Of a DNA stretch of 52,625 nucleotides, positions 14,978 through 25,690 are shown one piece after another (the first letter of the stretch is position 1; each line of letters starts with the position of its first letter). The notes below the pieces were generated by a model that worked only from the letters and a program-made list of their open reading frames with translations, did not search any database and was not told where the DNA came from. The position numbers and the translations under genes were made by a program. Where the stretch lies: NCBI GenBank assembly GCA_018333535.1, contig JAGXTA010000171.1, positions 1 to 52,625 on the forward strand, given 5' to 3'. Origin of the DNA: Deltaproteobacteria bacterium. GTDB lineage: Bacteria > Desulfobacterota > BSN033 > UBA1163.

Positions 14978-15143
14978 ATTTTTTAAAATCTGCGTAATCA
15001 GAGAGCGAAATGTAGTTTTTCAGAGCTCTCCAAATATCTGTTTGGATATCCGCCATAAGGCAGAGGAGAGAAGCTGGGGATGATTAAAACTCAATTGCCT
15101 GTTGGCGGCTGTTAAATATTCGGGGTCCGGTTTCTCACTGTTT

Positions 15144-15842
15144 ATGGGTCTCTACGAAAAAACACTTTATTTGTTGATGGGCGACCGGGGACTTCTTCTT
15201 GAATTCGGGGATGAAATCAGCCACGAAGTCAACGAGCGGGTCAGAAGGATGGCCCTTGCCATTGAGGCAGAGGCCATTGAAGGAATCATTGAGACCGTTC
15301 TCACTTACGGGTCTTTGCTCATCATCTACAATCCCCTGACCCTGCCGATCGACTCATTAAAGAAAAAGTTGCAAGAGATAGAGAAAGAACTGCAGGAGAC
15401 TCCGTTTCCCGAGGCGAAATTGACACGAATTCCCGCGGTCTATGGAGGCGCTTATGGACCGGATTTGGAGGGTGTGGCCAAACATTGTGGCATCTCCACG
15501 GAGGAAGTGATTCGCCTCCATTGCAGCAAGCCCTATTTCATCTATATGATCGGTTTTATGCCGGGCTATCCCTACATGGGAGAACTTCCCGAAGCCTTAA
15601 TCATGCCGCGGCTAAAAACACCGAGGCTTTCCGTTCCCAAAGGTTCTGTGGCGATTGCCCAGAAACAGACCGGTATCTATTCGATGGAGAGCCCCGGAGG
15701 CTGGCAGATCATCGGCCGGACTCCTGTCGAATTATTCAGCCCCGAGGGAAAACCTCCGGCCCTCCTTCAGATGGGAGACCTCGTGCAGTTTTATCCGATC
15801 AGTGAAGAAGAATTTAAGGAATGGCAAAATAGAAAAAATTGA
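15144..15842 (+). CDS. pxpB: 5-oxoprolinase subunit PxpB
   Basis: PxpB (KipI/allophanate hydrolase subunit 1 fold), 232 residues. With PxpA and PxpC it forms the prokaryotic 5-oxoprolinase that hydrolyses 5-oxoproline to glutamate at the expense of ATP. The N-terminal GDRGLLLEFGDEI and the central FMPGYPYMGELPE, PRLSVPKGSVAIA, QTGIYSMESPGGWQIIGRTP are family signatures. The frame is open from a TTG at 15102; ATG 15144 gives the usual distance to GDRG but has no clear Shine-Dalgarno, so the start is uncertain. pxpC follows after a repeat-filled spacer; pxpA is not in the window. Confidence 0.9.
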   Translation: MGLYEKTLYLLMGDRGLLLEFGDEISHEVNERVRRMALAIEAEAIEGIIETVLTYGSLLIIYNPLTLPIDSLKKKLQEIEKELQETPFPEAKLTRIPAVYGGAYGPDLEGVAKHCGISTEEVIRLHCSKPYFIYMIGFMPGYPYMGELPEALIMPRLKTPRLSVPKGSVAIAQKQTGIYSMESPGGWQIIGRTPVELFSPEGKPPALLQMGDLVQFYPISEEEFKEWQNRKN

Positions 15843-15889: not shown

Positions 15890-16003
15890 CCGTTCGTGGT
15901 GAGCCTTTCCTTCGACTTTGCTCAGGACATTCGGAAAAAAAACCGTTCGTCCTGAGGCTCTCGAAGGATGAACGGCGCCCTTCGACAGGCTCAGGGTGAA
16001 CGG
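15890..16003. repeat. REP-like palindromes between pxpB and pxpC
   Basis: Two imperfect units of the type CCTTCGAC...GCTCAGGA (15908-15930) and CCCTTCGACAGGCTCAGGG (15979-15997) alternate with an inverted copy, GTCCTGAGGCTCTCGAAGGA (15951-15970), and with CCGTTCGT/GAACGG strings. The same palindrome family occurs at 25498-25517 inside the cobalamin riboswitch. It looks like a cluster of REP-type repeats inserted between two genes that are usually adjacent. Confidence 0.65.
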
Positions 16004-21118: not shown

Positions 21119-21901
21119 TTACCGCTCCCCTTTCTTCAAAAGGGTGATTCTCGGCATCCCTGAGATGGGATTCTCATCGACCCACACCTTACAACCATAG
21201 ACCTCTTCGATGTTCTCGCGAGTGATCACTTCGCGGGGAGGCCCCATCTTATAAATCCTTCCTCCCTTGAGAAGGATGAGCCGGTCGCAATATTCGGAGG
21301 CGATGTTCAGGTCGTGGGAGGCCATGACGATCGTCAGTCCCTTCTCACGGTTAAGGTTCAGGACGAGATTGAGAAAATCGACCTGGTGATGGATGTCCAG
21401 GTTTGCCGTGGGTTCATCCAGCAAAATAATTTCAGGCTCCTGCGCCAAGGCCCTCGCAATGAAGACCCTTTTCCGCTCTCCGCCTGAGAGTTCATCGATA
21501 AATCTCTCGCTGATCGAAAGGGTCTCCGTCCAGTCCATCGCCTTCTTTGCGATCTCCAAATCCCTCACCCCTTCGAACATGAGATGGCCAAGGTAAGGTG
21601 ATCTCCCCATCAAAACAATCTCTACCACACGGAAGGGAAAGAGGGAGTAGGCTTCCTGGGGCACAACAGCGATCTTCCTCGCAATCTCCCTCTGGCTCAT
21701 CTCACTTAAGGAAGTGATCTCCAGGAGAATTTCTCCCTTTTGAGGGGAGAGGAGGCGGCAGAGGATTTTTAGAAGCGTGCTTTTCCCGGAGCCATTGGGA
21801 CCGATCACGCCAATGAATTCGCCTCTTTCGATCCGCAAAGAGATATCCTGAAGAACCCAGTCCTGGCGGTAGCGGAAAGAGACCGAACGAAGATCGATCA
21901 T
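21119..21901 (-). CDS. btuD: Vitamin B12 / iron-siderophore-type ABC transporter ATPase
   Basis: 260 residues, FecE/BtuD class. Walker A is GPNGSGKSTLLK (about 36-47), signature LSGGERKRVFIARALA, Walker B IILLDEPTANLD. It energises import through the BtuC permease. The start codon overlaps the btuC stop (ATGA, 21898-21901), so translation is coupled. It is the last gene of the operon downstream of a cobalamin riboswitch, which supports B12 or another corrinoid rather than heme or siderophore. Confidence 0.9.
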   Translation of the reverse strand: MIDLRSVSFRYRQDWVLQDISLRIERGEFIGVIGPNGSGKSTLLKILCRLLSPQKGEILLEITSLSEMSQREIARKIAVVPQEAYSLFPFRVVEIVLMGRSPYLGHLMFEGVRDLEIAKKAMDWTETLSISERFIDELSGGERKRVFIARALAQEPEIILLDEPTANLDIHHQVDFLNLVLNLNREKGLTIVMASHDLNIASEYCDRLILLKGGRIYKMGPPREVITRENIEEVYGCKVWVDENPISGMPRITLLKKGER

Positions 21902-22929
21902 AGTGTCTTCACCACCTTTCTCTTCCTCAGAAGGTAGATGAAGAAGGGCCCTCCGAAGGCCGCCGTGATCACGCCGACAGGAAGCTCCACCGGCGCCAGA
22001 ATCGTTCTGGCAAAGGTGTCGGAGGCGATGAGAAAAGAGGCGCCGATCAGGGCGGAGGCAGGAAGAAGGAGCCGGTGATCAGGCCCGAAGAGGAGTCGGG
22101 CGGAATGGGGAATGATCAGGCCCACGAAACCGATCAGGCCGCACAGTGAGACAGAGGCCGCTGTGATCAGAGAAGCACAGAGATAGGAGACGATCTTCAA
22201 TCGCTCCACATCCACGCCCAATTGCAGGGCGCTCTCCTCGCCCGAAAGGATCAGATTTAAGTGGGGCGATTTCCAGTAGAGAATCAAAAAGCCTGCCACA
22301 ATATAAGGAAGGATGATGCCGATTGCCCGTGGATTCGCAAAACTGAAATCTCCCATCAACCAGAAGATAATCGTATGGAGCTCCTCCTTCTGGGAGATGG
22401 AGAGGAAGAACATGATGATGGCGGAGAGAAAGGACCCTGTGATGACCCCGGCAAGAAGCAGGATATTGGGATGAATCTTGCCCTCCTGTTTTCCGAAATA
22501 AAAGACCAGTCCAATGGTTATCAGCGCGCCTGCAAATGAGGCAAGAGGAAGGCCGAAGGAGAGGGCGCTCAACCCCAGGAAGATCGCAATGATCGCTCCC
22601 ACGGCTGAGCCGCTGGAGACGCCGAGGATATAGGGATCGGCCAGAGGATTTCTCAAAAGGGCCTGGAAGATGACGCCTGAGACAGAGAGCCCTGCTCCGA
22701 CCAGCCCTGCCAGCAAAGCCCTGGGAAACCGGAGCGAGAGAATGATCGTTCGTTCCATTTCAGTTTCGGTCCCCGTCAGGCCCAGAAGCGACTGGAGGAG
22801 GATGGAGATGGAACGGACGGGATCAACCCTCACGCTACCCACCATCACCGAAAACAGAGTCACAAATATCAGGAGTAGGGTGAGGAGAAGGGTAACAGTA
22901 AGGACCTTTTTAAGGGTAAGGATCTTCAT
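21898..22929 (-). CDS. btuC: Vitamin B12-type ABC transporter permease (FecCD family)
   Basis: 343 residues, about ten predicted membrane helices. FecCD-family signatures include RFPRALLAGLVGAGLSVSG, FQALLRNPLADPYILGVSSG, GLIGFVGLIIPHSARLLFGP (gate/coupling region) and the ending PFFIYLLRKRK. It lies in the cytoplasmic membrane and pairs with the ATPase that overlaps its stop codon. A 75-bp spacer with short TGCTAATTTTG inverted repeats separates it from btuF. Confidence 0.93.
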   Translation of the reverse strand: MKILTLKKVLTVTLLLTLLLIFVTLFSVMVGSVRVDPVRSISILLQSLLGLTGTETEMERTIILSLRFPRALLAGLVGAGLSVSGVIFQALLRNPLADPYILGVSSGSAVGAIIAIFLGLSALSFGLPLASFAGALITIGLVFYFGKQEGKIHPNILLLAGVITGSFLSAIIMFFLSISQKEELHTIIFWLMGDFSFANPRAIGIILPYIVAGFLILYWKSPHLNLILSGEESALQLGVDVERLKIVSYLCASLITAASVSLCGLIGFVGLIIPHSARLLFGPDHRLLLPASALIGASFLIASDTFARTILAPVELPVGVITAAFGGPFFIYLLRKRKVVKTL

Positions 22930-23004: not shown

Positions 23005-23949
23005 CTAATTTTGCACTGGTTTTTTATACCGCCCCGGATGAATCAGCGTTGCCATCTCCTCCAGTCCTTCGATGATCCTGGGCGAGGGGCGATCGATCAG
23101 GTCTGAGTCGATGAGGTGAATCCTGCCCTGTTTTACAGCAGGGATCATCTTCCAGCGCTCCCATTCACGTAAAATCCTTTCATAATCCCCTTTTGGGTTC
23201 ATGGAGCTGATGAGGATCACCTCCGGCGATCTCTTTAAAATTTCCTCCATTCCCAATCGAGGATACATCTCTTTATCCTTTCCCGCAACATTTTCTCCTC
23301 CTGCCAGACGGATGAGATCGTCTCCAAAGCTTCCTTTTCCGACTGTCACGATGGGCGATTCTCCGATCTGGAGAAAGACTTTCGGACGGTAAAGGGTTTT
23401 AGTCCGTTCGGCCACCTTCTCTTTCCTTCTCTGCATCGACTCGATGATCGAGAGAGCCTCTCTCTCCTTTGCCGACACCCGACCGAGGTGACGAATGCTT
23501 TGAAGGACATCTTCAAATCTTTTCGGAAAAATTACAAAAGATGGAAACCCCAATCTCTCCAGACGCTCCACCATCTCCCTTGGATTTCCGGCCCCGGTCG
23601 CAATGATCAAGTCGGGCTTGAGGGAGATGACCCTTTCAAAGTCAATGCTAATATAACTTCCGACCCTCACCCTGGACTTCGCCTTTTCAGGGTAGTTGCA
23701 ATGGATGGAGACGCCCACTACCTCCTCATCAAGGCCAAGGCTGAAGAGGATTTCGGTGATGTTGGGAGCCAGGGAAACAATCCGCTTCGGAGGAAAAGAA
23801 AACGTCACTTCCCTCCCGACTTCATCTTTTAACTTTAAAGTGCCCGCATCGGACACCAAGGGAGTTAAAAAGATGAACATGCAAAGGATCAAAAAAAATC
23901 TCCATCTCTTTCTCCCTTGATGGGAAAAAACTGTCTTTCCCCTCCCCAT
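23005..23949 (-). CDS. btuF: Cobalamin-type periplasmic binding protein
   Basis: About 314 residues, a TroA/BtuF-like binding protein. A hydrophobic signal segment (RFFLILCMFIFLTPLVSDAG) precedes VTFSFPPKRIVSLAPNITEI, LGLDEEVVGVSIHCNYP, LKPDLIIA and GGENVAGKDKEMYPRLGMEE. It would deliver B12 to BtuCD. The first ATG after the adjacent MITE is at 23949 but lacks a Shine-Dalgarno; 53 upstream in-frame codons lie inside the MITE and are not native. An AAGGGAG occurs at about 23917-23923 without an obvious start after it, so the true start is unclear. Confidence 0.85.
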   Translation of the reverse strand: MGRGKTVFSHQGRKRWRFFLILCMFIFLTPLVSDAGTLKLKDEVGREVTFSFPPKRIVSLAPNITEILFSLGLDEEVVGVSIHCNYPEKAKSRVRVGSYISIDFERVISLKPDLIIATGAGNPREMVERLERLGFPSFVIFPKRFEDVLQSIRHLGRVSAKEREALSIIESMQRRKEKVAERTKTLYRPKVFLQIGESPIVTVGKGSFGDDLIRLAGGENVAGKDKEMYPRLGMEEILKRSPEVILISSMNPKGDYERILREWERWKMIPAVKQGRIHLIDSDLIDRPSPRIIEGLEEMATLIHPGRYKKPVQN

Positions 23950-23951
23950 CG

Positions 23952-24204
23952 AGAGACTGTGTCGTATTATGAATAAACCGACTTTTTGAAAAGGGGGAGA
24001 GGCGGTCGGGTGGAAAAGATTTAGAGCAGTAACCTTTAGCCGTTCGGATTCTGGCATGCTATGTGTATGAAAACATCCAAATTGATACAAGTGACCGTTC
24101 CCAATCATCTAAAAGACCCGCATTCTAAAGCTTTGCCCTCCTGCCGGCGGGCAGGGAACCTGACTGCCTTTCCCCCTTTTCATTCCGATTACGACACAGT
24201 CTCT
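23952..24204. mobile_element. MITE-like element, 253 bp, family D
   Basis: Perfect 15-bp terminal inverted repeats, AGAGACTGTGTCGTA (23952-23966) and its complement (24190-24204). Similarity continues inward: GAAAAGGGGGAGAGGC on the left and the complement of GAAAAGGGGGAAAGGC on the right. An inner inverted pair (AAAGATTTAGAGCAG about 24015-24029; CGCATTCTAAAGCTTTG about 24119-24135) is shared with the element at 25173-25348. It is non-coding. It lies between btuF and tonB and touches the btuF start. Confidence 0.75.
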
Positions 24205-24256: not shown

Positions 24257-25144
24257 TCATCGAAGTTGGAAAGCAACAGGGATATTGACCCATCCAGGAA
24301 CCGGGGTTTCACCCTTTTTCGCAGGGACAAATTTCCACTGCTTCACAGCGGAAATGGCAGAACCGTCCAAAACCTCATGACCCGAAGAACGCCTCACCTC
24401 AATCTCTCCCACCCGGCCATTGGATAAGACTTCAACCCTGAGTAAAACCTCTCCTTCGTATCCTTTTTTCCTCGCCTCCCGGGGATAGAGGGGTTTGGGA
24501 TTTTCAGCATATCGGGGTTGAGCAAAGATGACTTCACCTTCGGAGAGGGAAGGACTCTTTATCGCCACACGAGACGTTTCAGAGGAACTGGTTTGAGGAA
24601 AGGGATTTCCAAGCGATGCGATGACAACCCTTTCTTCCTGCTTATTTTCTATGACTTTCTTCTCGCTTTGTAATAGAGATAATTTGGGTTCGCTGACCGA
24701 TATGACCTTCGCTTCGTTCTGAACAGGCGCGGTGGCTATGGGTTCCTGCTCCTTTTTAGGGAGAGTGACCTCTACTTCCTCAACCCGAGAAACCTTCCTC
24801 TCCTCATGGGTTTTCACGGGTGCGTGTGCTTCGGTCTTTATCTCAACCTCTTCACTCCGAACTCCCTCCGGGCCGTAGGCCCTTATGGGCTGAACTCCGA
24901 ACTCCCCGCCTGCCGAAGAAGTGGCTTGGCGGGCAGGCGAACTCCGAACTTTTGTCCTGTCTTCCACCTTTCTCAACGGCTCCCTTTTCTCCTTGATGAT
25001 GGGAAGAAGAGAGACTTCAATGTTCAAACGCGGAAGTTGTGTGATCTTAAAATCCGGCAGGAGGATGGAAAGAAGGGAAAAGACAAAGAAGTGGAGTCCC
25101 AACGAGATGGATATAAAGAGTTTAAAATTCCAGGTTCCGTTCAT
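24257..25144 (-). CDS. tonB: TonB-like energy-transducing protein
   Basis: 295 residues. One N-terminal membrane helix (LFISISLGLHFFVFSLLSIL), a long charged periplasmic linker, and a C-terminal TonB domain (YPREARKKGYEGEVLLRVEV...GRVGEIEVRRSSGHEVLD, ending AVKQWKFVPAKK). It couples proton-motive force via ExbB/ExbD to an outer-membrane receptor, here presumably a BtuB-like one, though none is in the window. It is the first gene after the cobalamin riboswitch. ATG 25144 has no Shine-Dalgarno, and a MITE ends 28 bp upstream. Residues about 62-100 are encoded by palindromic repeat DNA. Confidence 0.88.
   Translation of the reverse strand: MNGTWNFKLFISISLGLHFFVFSLLSILLPDFKITQLPRLNIEVSLLPIIKEKREPLRKVEDRTKVRSSPARQATSSAGGEFGVQPIRAYGPEGVRSEEVEIKTEAHAPVKTHEERKVSRVEEVEVTLPKKEQEPIATAPVQNEAKVISVSEPKLSLLQSEKKVIENKQEERVVIASLGNPFPQTSSSETSRVAIKSPSLSEGEVIFAQPRYAENPKPLYPREARKKGYEGEVLLRVEVLSNGRVGEIEVRRSSGHEVLDGSAISAVKQWKFVPAKKGETPVPGWVNIPVAFQLR
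24853..24956. repeat. Palindromic repeat inside the tonB linker
   Basis: Three copies of ACTCCGAACT (about 24856, 24894 and 24941) flank two palindromes: GGGCCGTAGGCCC (24871-24883) and CCCGCCTGCCGAAG...GGCGGGCAGGCG (24905-24940). Such palindromes otherwise occur in spacers of this window. Here they are read in frame, adding about 33 residues (GGEFGVQPIRAYGPEG and neighbours) to the disordered TonB linker. Confidence 0.65.
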
Positions 25145-25172: not shown

Positions 25173-25348
25173 CTCTATGGGACATCGGTCAGGGATGTTG
25201 AAAAAGTTTTAGAGCGGAAACCTTCAAATAATCAATGCGTCAGATCGCCGGTATAGTTAACGATTATAAAAACAACAGGGCTTTAGGACTACATTAAAAA
25301 ACCGCATTCTAAAACTTTGAAAACATCTTTGGCCGATGTCCCATAGAG
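25173..25348. mobile_element. MITE-like element, 176 bp, family C
   Basis: Terminal inverted repeats of about 45 bp. The outer 16 bp, CTCTATGGGACATCGG, are identical, followed by GATGTT and AAAGTTTTAGA blocks on both arms (25173-25218 and 25303-25348). The inner part (AAAGTTTTAGAGCGG and its complement) is the same module found in the element at 23952-24204. It is non-coding. It sits between the riboswitch terminator and tonB. Confidence 0.8.
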
Positions 25349-25352
25349 TGAC

Positions 25353-25385
25353 AAAAAACCCGCTCTTCGGGAGAAAGAGCGGGTT
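25353..25385 (-). terminator. Rho-independent terminator of the cobalamin riboswitch
   Basis: Read on the - strand, an 11-bp stem (AACCCGCTCTT at 25375-25385 read as its complement, pairing with 25357-25367) with loop TCTCCCG is followed by six U residues (25353-25358). It lies about 50 nt downstream of the riboswitch core and before tonB. It is the expected expression platform: a transcriptional off-switch when cobalamin is bound. Confidence 0.85.
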
Positions 25386-25435
25386 CTTTTCAACGTCACC
25401 CTTCACAGCCTTCCACCGAAGACCTAATCGTGAAG

Positions 25436-25615
25436 CGTATTCAGGCAGGTTTTCTGGCTTACGGATCATCCTAATCCCTGCCCCTTCCCACCCTTTGACC
25501 CTTCGACAAGCTCAGGGCTTTGGGCAGTGGTTACTGGCAGGTTTCGTCCCCGATTACAGCGGCGTGGCCGTCCCCGATTCTCACGGGGTTCCCTTTTGAG
25601 GCATCAAGCCACCTG
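25436..25615 (-). promoter_or_regulatory. Cobalamin (AdoCbl) riboswitch
   Basis: On the - strand the conserved elements occur in order: GGTGGCTTGATGCC and AAAAGGGAACCCCGTG (5' side), GAATCGGGGACGGCCACG, CCGCTGTAATCGGGGACG, CCACTGCCC, GGGTGGGAAGGGGCAGGG, and the 3' GATGATCCGTAAGCCAGAA followed by ACCTGCC. These are the core of the cobalamin aptamer. The variable hairpin between CCACTG and GGGAAGG contains the dispersed palindrome CCCTGAGCTTGTCGAAGGG. It controls the downstream tonB-btuF-btuC-btuD genes through the terminator at 25353-25385. Confidence 0.9.
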
Positions 25616-25690
25616 AACACCTATTCAATTTTAACTCTTTATATCATAAGCATCGAAAGAGTGTCAAATATTATCACCCTGAAGCCGCCC

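Follow-up and report, generated by a model that had tools for sequence, protein, structure and literature searches.

Dispersed palindromes in the peripheral hairpin of cobalamin riboswitches

A short palindrome dispersed across a deltaproteobacterial genome is present at the tip of a peripheral hairpin of a cobalamin (B12) riboswitch, and it recurs in orthologous and paralogous riboswitches, turning over among near-identical orthologues while the aptamer core is conserved. This is not a single event, as the repeat recurs at this one hairpin. We consider it probable that a tolerant peripheral hairpin has repeatedly been entered by dispersed palindromes (the tips of REP elements), and that selection has held the core of the RNA. 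The riboswitch lies in a 52,625-nt stretch of DNA, referred to here in its entirety as the window, which belongs to a genome of 4.39 Mb in 192 contigs.

The riboswitch and its repeat in the window

The riboswitch belongs to Rfam family RF00174, which it matches over the full model and above the gathering score (31.5 bits), and it lies upstream of B12 transport genes (tonB-btuFCD-like). The original prediction had placed it at 25436–25615; its location was right, but the Rfam element is slightly longer at both ends. The features to which we refer below are as follows.

25427–25631, minus strand: cobalamin (B12) riboswitch aptamer, RF00174 (106.3 bits, E 1.1e-25, model positions 1–189 of 189)
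25525–25530, minus strand: CCACTG, the conserved segment bordering the hairpin on its 5′ side (Rfam alignment)
25518–25524, minus strand: CCCAAAG, the left outer arm, probably derived by decay from an outer REP arm (CCCTGAG), from arm comparison
25499–25517, minus strand: tip of the hairpin, occupied by the REP core CCCTGAGCTTGTCGAAGGG, by sequence match (its 17-nt core has 143 genomic copies)
25491–25498, minus strand: TCAAAGGG, the right outer arm, probably derived by decay from an outer REP arm (TCGAAGGG), from arm comparison
25483–25489, minus strand: GGGAAGG, the conserved segment bordering the hairpin on its 3′ side (Rfam alignment)
25353–25389, minus strand: probable intrinsic terminator serving as expression platform (GC-rich inverted repeat, then a T-run)
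24257–25144, minus strand: TonB-family protein (PF03544)
23005–24108, minus strand: periplasmic binding protein, BtuF-like (PF01497)
21898–22929, minus strand: FecCD permease, BtuC-like (PF01032)
21119–21901, minus strand: ABC ATPase, BtuD-like (PF00005)
15978–15996, minus strand: second copy of the palindrome, with one mismatch, in a cluster of three in the pxpB–pxpC spacer

Alignment to the covariance model, which had been proposed as a check, assigns the repeat to a 25-nt insert (Infernal) between the conserved CCACUG and GGGAAGG, just where the palindrome had been predicted to lie, and the full-length match bears out the further claim that the conserved aptamer core is intact around it. 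The candidate terminator has 15-nt arms (93%) and its sequence is kept in orthologues; it is not among the terminators listed by a simple terminator scanner. Between this terminator and tonB sits a 41-nt inverted repeat (25173–25348; arms 85% complementary, separated by 94 nt) that resembles a miniature transposon, and related sequence occupies the same place in one orthologous region (G006) and is absent from three others (G007a, G002a, G004a).

Of the 15 letters in the outer arms of the window hairpin, 12 agree with the REP arms CCCTGAG and TCGAAGGG, as do six of the nine that are left when the CCC/GGG needed for pairing are set aside (binomial p 0.01). Judged by this likeness, the arm may be a repeat-in-repeat that has decayed; clear nests of this kind are present in the orthologues G009a and G007a. 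Computed folds of the window aptamer carrying each of five natural hairpins retain the outer stem and the neighbouring hairpin, although such folds ignore tertiary contacts and are weak evidence on how regulation would be affected. The idea that the REP is unusually stable as RNA was dropped, free-energy z-scores being unremarkable (−1.6 to +0.3).

Within the window, CCCTGAGCTTGTCGAAGGG has two matches at up to three mismatches, against a mean of 0.06 in shuffled sequences, none of 100 of which reached two. Across the genome it occurs at 80 places within two mismatches, and its 17-nt core CCTGAGNNNNTCGAAGG has 143 exact matches; the reversed-pattern control gave 0 in both cases. The other copy in the window is indeed, as had been noted, in the pxpB–pxpC spacer, flanked by PxpB-type (CT_C_D, ORF 15102–15842) and PxpC-type (CT_A_B, ORF from 16009) genes. 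The spacer contains, at 15903–15996, three related palindromes in alternating orientation, which resemble a BIME cluster.

Genomic copies of the repeat are about 33 nt long. In 32 distinct copies that we sampled, the core lies between arms such as CCGTTCGY and RYGAACGG; these outer arms pair at five or more of eight positions in 23 of the 32. The genomic repeat thus has the size and dispersal of a REP (a palindrome of 20–40 bp in many dispersed copies), whereas riboswitch copies hold the inner 17–19 nt only: the left flank starts with CCG in 31 of the 32 sampled genomic copies and in none of the riboswitch copies, and the copy in the window riboswitch is an inner core rather than a complete element with its outer arms. 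The original prediction, that the repeat had inserted into the riboswitch and been accepted as a peripheral stem, therefore stands insofar as a dispersed palindrome makes up the hairpin and the core around it is intact, but simple insertion of a whole element is not established, because riboswitch copies retain only the inner 19 nt of the ~33-nt repeat.

Inspected by eye, the 8-nt flanks of the 32 distinct copies contained no GTAG tetranucleotide at the foot of the stem, which does not fit the GTAG REP superfamily as described in the excerpted text of PMC3733652. The CGTC superfamily of the same excerpt (a CGTC tag, then a stem starting with AT) is likewise a poor fit by eye, since here the position of the tag is variable and the stem starts with CT. 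The genome has 25 matches to Y1_Tnp, and among 10 of these loci that were inspected one has a core about 0.9 kb away and none is convincing as a repeat-linked transposase. Neither a target-site duplication nor an exact empty site was found for the riboswitch repeats. Among 20 repeat loci examined for other structured RNAs, only one had an aptamer nearby, a TPP aptamer with the repeat pair outside it; at this locus (L131, 1501–1788) the TPP riboswitch and its terminator are followed by an inverted pair of window-type repeats just before the next gene.

Occupancy of the hairpin in relatives and in other phyla

The sample of the class comprised 23 genomes, in which a family search gave 39 riboswitch matches at E up to 0.001, including a weak contig-end piece in G017. 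Thirty-eight were extracted, 37 had a parsable hairpin, delimited by CCACTR and GGGAAGG, and 36 were scored, by a strict regular expression, for the repeat; one riboswitch without CCACTR (G018) was left out before the tree was built and one whose hairpin reads N (G014a) before the counts were made. A repeat hairpin is present in 13 of the 36 scorable riboswitches (11 forward, nests included, and two reverse, in G001 and G006), and both B12 riboswitches of the window genome carry it. Seven further hairpins (G012, G013a, G013b, G016, G017, G019a, G021a) look decayed by eye and were scored as non-repeat. A tree built without the hairpin implies a minimum of eight changes of presence and 11 of type, a rough minimum since 18 of its 34 inner branches are poorly supported. 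Separately, G002a has an extra hairpin of ~31 nt after GGGAAGG, and a similar extra stem is seen by eye in G001 and G016 (riboswitches L045, L044, L062); it is not the window repeat.

Turnover is clearest in four orthologues (G000a, G004a, G006 and G007a) that form a clade supported 98/89 and all precede the same tonB-btuF-btuC genes. They differ from one another by 1–7 substitutions in 107 positions to the left of the hairpin and 0–4 in 63 to its right, yet their hairpins differ in kind: G000a has a decayed nest, G004a a plain stem, G006 a reverse repeat and G007a a triple nest. Comparison with related genomes, suggested at the outset, has thus found the same hairpin empty, reversed or nested. 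Repeat-in-repeat arrangements with zero mismatches number four in the 23 genomes, and all four are in B12 riboswitches; six two-mismatch nests, in which another 19-nt repeat sits in the loop, lie elsewhere in these genomes, and the two of them that were read in context are within longer genomic repeats. An unrelated palindrome, TCCCGCCNNNGGCGGGA, forms the hairpin of the other B12 riboswitch of G007, so the dispersed palindromes that this arm takes up are of more than one kind; TCCCGCCNNNGGCGGGA occurs at four places in G007 and at 1–17 in the nine genomes searched.

A wider scan of genomes, with a pattern allowing either orientation of the repeat and also perfectly paired stems, gave 43 matches in 42 stretches. 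All 21 matches inside Rfam-called riboswitches are of the repeat type (20 forward, one reverse) and none is Watson–Crick-perfect; they are found in Syntrophales-like genomes, Nitrospirota (among them a Nitrospira japonica bin) and Sphingomonadales. Of the 22 outside, two are riboswitch-like by eye: L113, which lies at the end of a contig, and L120, which falls short of the cut-off. Four of the 42 stretches (L103, L107, L123, L124), left out of the Rfam scans, share the Peribacteria context of L093, for which the Rfam scan returned no match. These counts bear on whether the likeness is merely that of one GC-rich stem to another, as homologous riboswitches with unrelated stems of the same length would have suggested. 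One such riboswitch was found, G004a, with a plain stem about as long; plain hairpins vary widely, and among very many riboswitches a degenerate pattern could turn up by chance. Yet the absence of any Watson–Crick-perfect stem among the 21 matches refutes chance for the set as a whole, and with the repeat in both riboswitches of the window genome and with the nests, we regard chance as a very remote explanation.

Repeat-type hairpins are sparse in the other groups. The hairpin is matched in 85 of 118 Sphingomonadales genomes, of which only G314, the search centre, is repeat-type by eye; in 134 of 198 Nitrospirota genomes, with one degenerate case (G499) by eye among the matches listed; and in 232 of 297 genomes of the window genome's own phylum, where outside the class only G213 is repeat-type by eye among the matches listed. 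Since repeat-type hairpins are rare in Sphingomonadales, in Nitrospirota and in the rest of the phylum, high occupancy appears to be special to the class.

Such a distribution might also be sought in one or two ancient insertions, inherited vertically and followed by decay, inversion or loss. Some sharing of this kind is seen, as the outer arms TCCGAAG/GCAGGA are common to G000b, G004b and G014b, and the hairpin TCCTGAGTTCATCGAAGGA to the g5 genomes. Nevertheless, descent from so few events has to accommodate reverse, triple-nested and plain hairpins on near-identical cores, a hairpin formed at this site by an unrelated second palindrome, and repeat hairpins in other phyla, and we judge it quite unlikely.

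Copy number, selection and possible routes of entry

In the family of the window genome, the repeat is present in eight of 13 riboswitches where the genome has 10 cores or more, against one of 15 where it has fewer than 10 (Fisher p 0.0036, relatedness not corrected), while only ~0.11 repeat hairpins would be expected among the 13 if the cores were placed randomly in 10% of the genome. Across the whole class the contrast is eight of 13 against five of 23 (p 0.03), weakened by REP-poor genomes: G017 and G020–G022, with 1–3 cores each, have the repeat in four of six scorable riboswitches, and G020 has just two cores genome-wide, one in each of its two riboswitches. Also against a tie to copy number, G003 has 94 cores yet a plain hairpin. 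A genome from the wider scan (G309, L097) also has 94 cores, in 1.8 Mb, the highest number per megabase among the 38 genomes in which cores were counted; one of its B12 riboswitches carries a minimal repeat hairpin.

We read the REP-poor cases as fossils retained as part of the RNA; the alternative is selection for the hairpin itself. Put more generally, a tandem G.A hairpin (UGAG/CGAA) could be favoured in this arm at the RNA level, by convergence or purifying selection, and its likeness to the genomic repeat would then be secondary. The hairpins of G020b, G021b and G022 are identical at 20 of 20 positions despite 18–25 substitutions in the left part of the riboswitch, the hairpin is found in genomes with almost no other copies, and the wider scan is skewed 20 to one towards the forward orientation, all of which would fit such selection. 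Against it, the reverse copies in G001 and G006 give U.C rather than G.A mismatches in the RNA, nests have repeat arms, the match to the dispersed repeat is exact over 17 nt, and occupancy correlates with copy number in the family; we think it improbable that RNA-level selection explains the pattern.

Repeated entry of dispersed palindromes, which we prefer, might proceed as follows. The peripheral hairpin would tolerate any stable stem, and palindromes active in the genome would take its place or insert into its loop, whichever way round and at times nested within one another, with the aptamer core and terminator kept constant by selection. Entry may be by single-strand (lagging-strand) hairpin transposition or by template switching between hairpins; for the former a Y1 enzyme is a candidate, as in the IS200/IS605 and TnpA-REP systems treated in the excerpt of PMC6006769. 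With the repeat stem presumably stacked on the short conserved helix, the ligand response would be unchanged.

The existence of core-only copies and of loop-in-loop nests suggests that it is the tip, rather than the complete element, that moves. It is possible, though we offer the idea tentatively, that the 19-nt REP tip moves as a unit of its own and enters the loops of hairpins, the peripheral hairpin of the B12 riboswitch being a landing pad on which arms grow as stacks of repeat-in-repeat and outlive the repeat family elsewhere as fossils. This suggestion stems from the core-only copies, the location of all four perfect nests in riboswitches, the six two-mismatch nests with a core in the loop, and the occurrence of both cores of G020 in riboswitches.

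Comparison with known systems

The repeat resembles the REP/REPIN elements mobilized by RAYT (TnpA-REP) in being a short, imperfect, dispersed palindrome with more than 100 copies and inverted pairs; it differs in that the sampled flanks are without the GTAG tag, no convincing linked RAYT was found at the loci inspected and the riboswitch copy is an inner tip. The core-only and nested copies nonetheless bear on the question of how REP elements move. Palindromes inside structured RNA genes have a precedent in the Rickettsia palindromic elements of the tmRNA and RNase P RNA genes (PMC2229807, citing Ogata 2002). As given in the excerpt of that source, those elements are 105–146 bp long and lie in two RNA genes, whereas here a 19-nt tip recurs in one riboswitch hairpin, with nests and in both orientations. 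We found no account of REP elements within a riboswitch in the open-access literature, judged from titles and abstract openings and with most subscription papers outside its scope.

Near-identical orthologues here are a case of an RNA regulator that swaps a whole structural arm while its core stays fixed, and since hairpins of forward, reverse, nested and plain form occur naturally on a single core, they offer a panel for testing how far peripheral structure can vary before ligand sensing is altered. According to the excerpted part of Barrick and Breaker 2007 (PMC2258182), riboswitches tolerate nonconserved stem-loop insertions at set sites, and the AdoCbl aptamer has an optional P8–P10–P11 domain, of which we infer the repeat hairpin to be the end. 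The stem-loops tolerated there and here are alike; no source for them is given in that excerpt, while here the source is a dispersed repeat, so that a concrete origin can be named for the ‘variable insertions’ of riboswitches.
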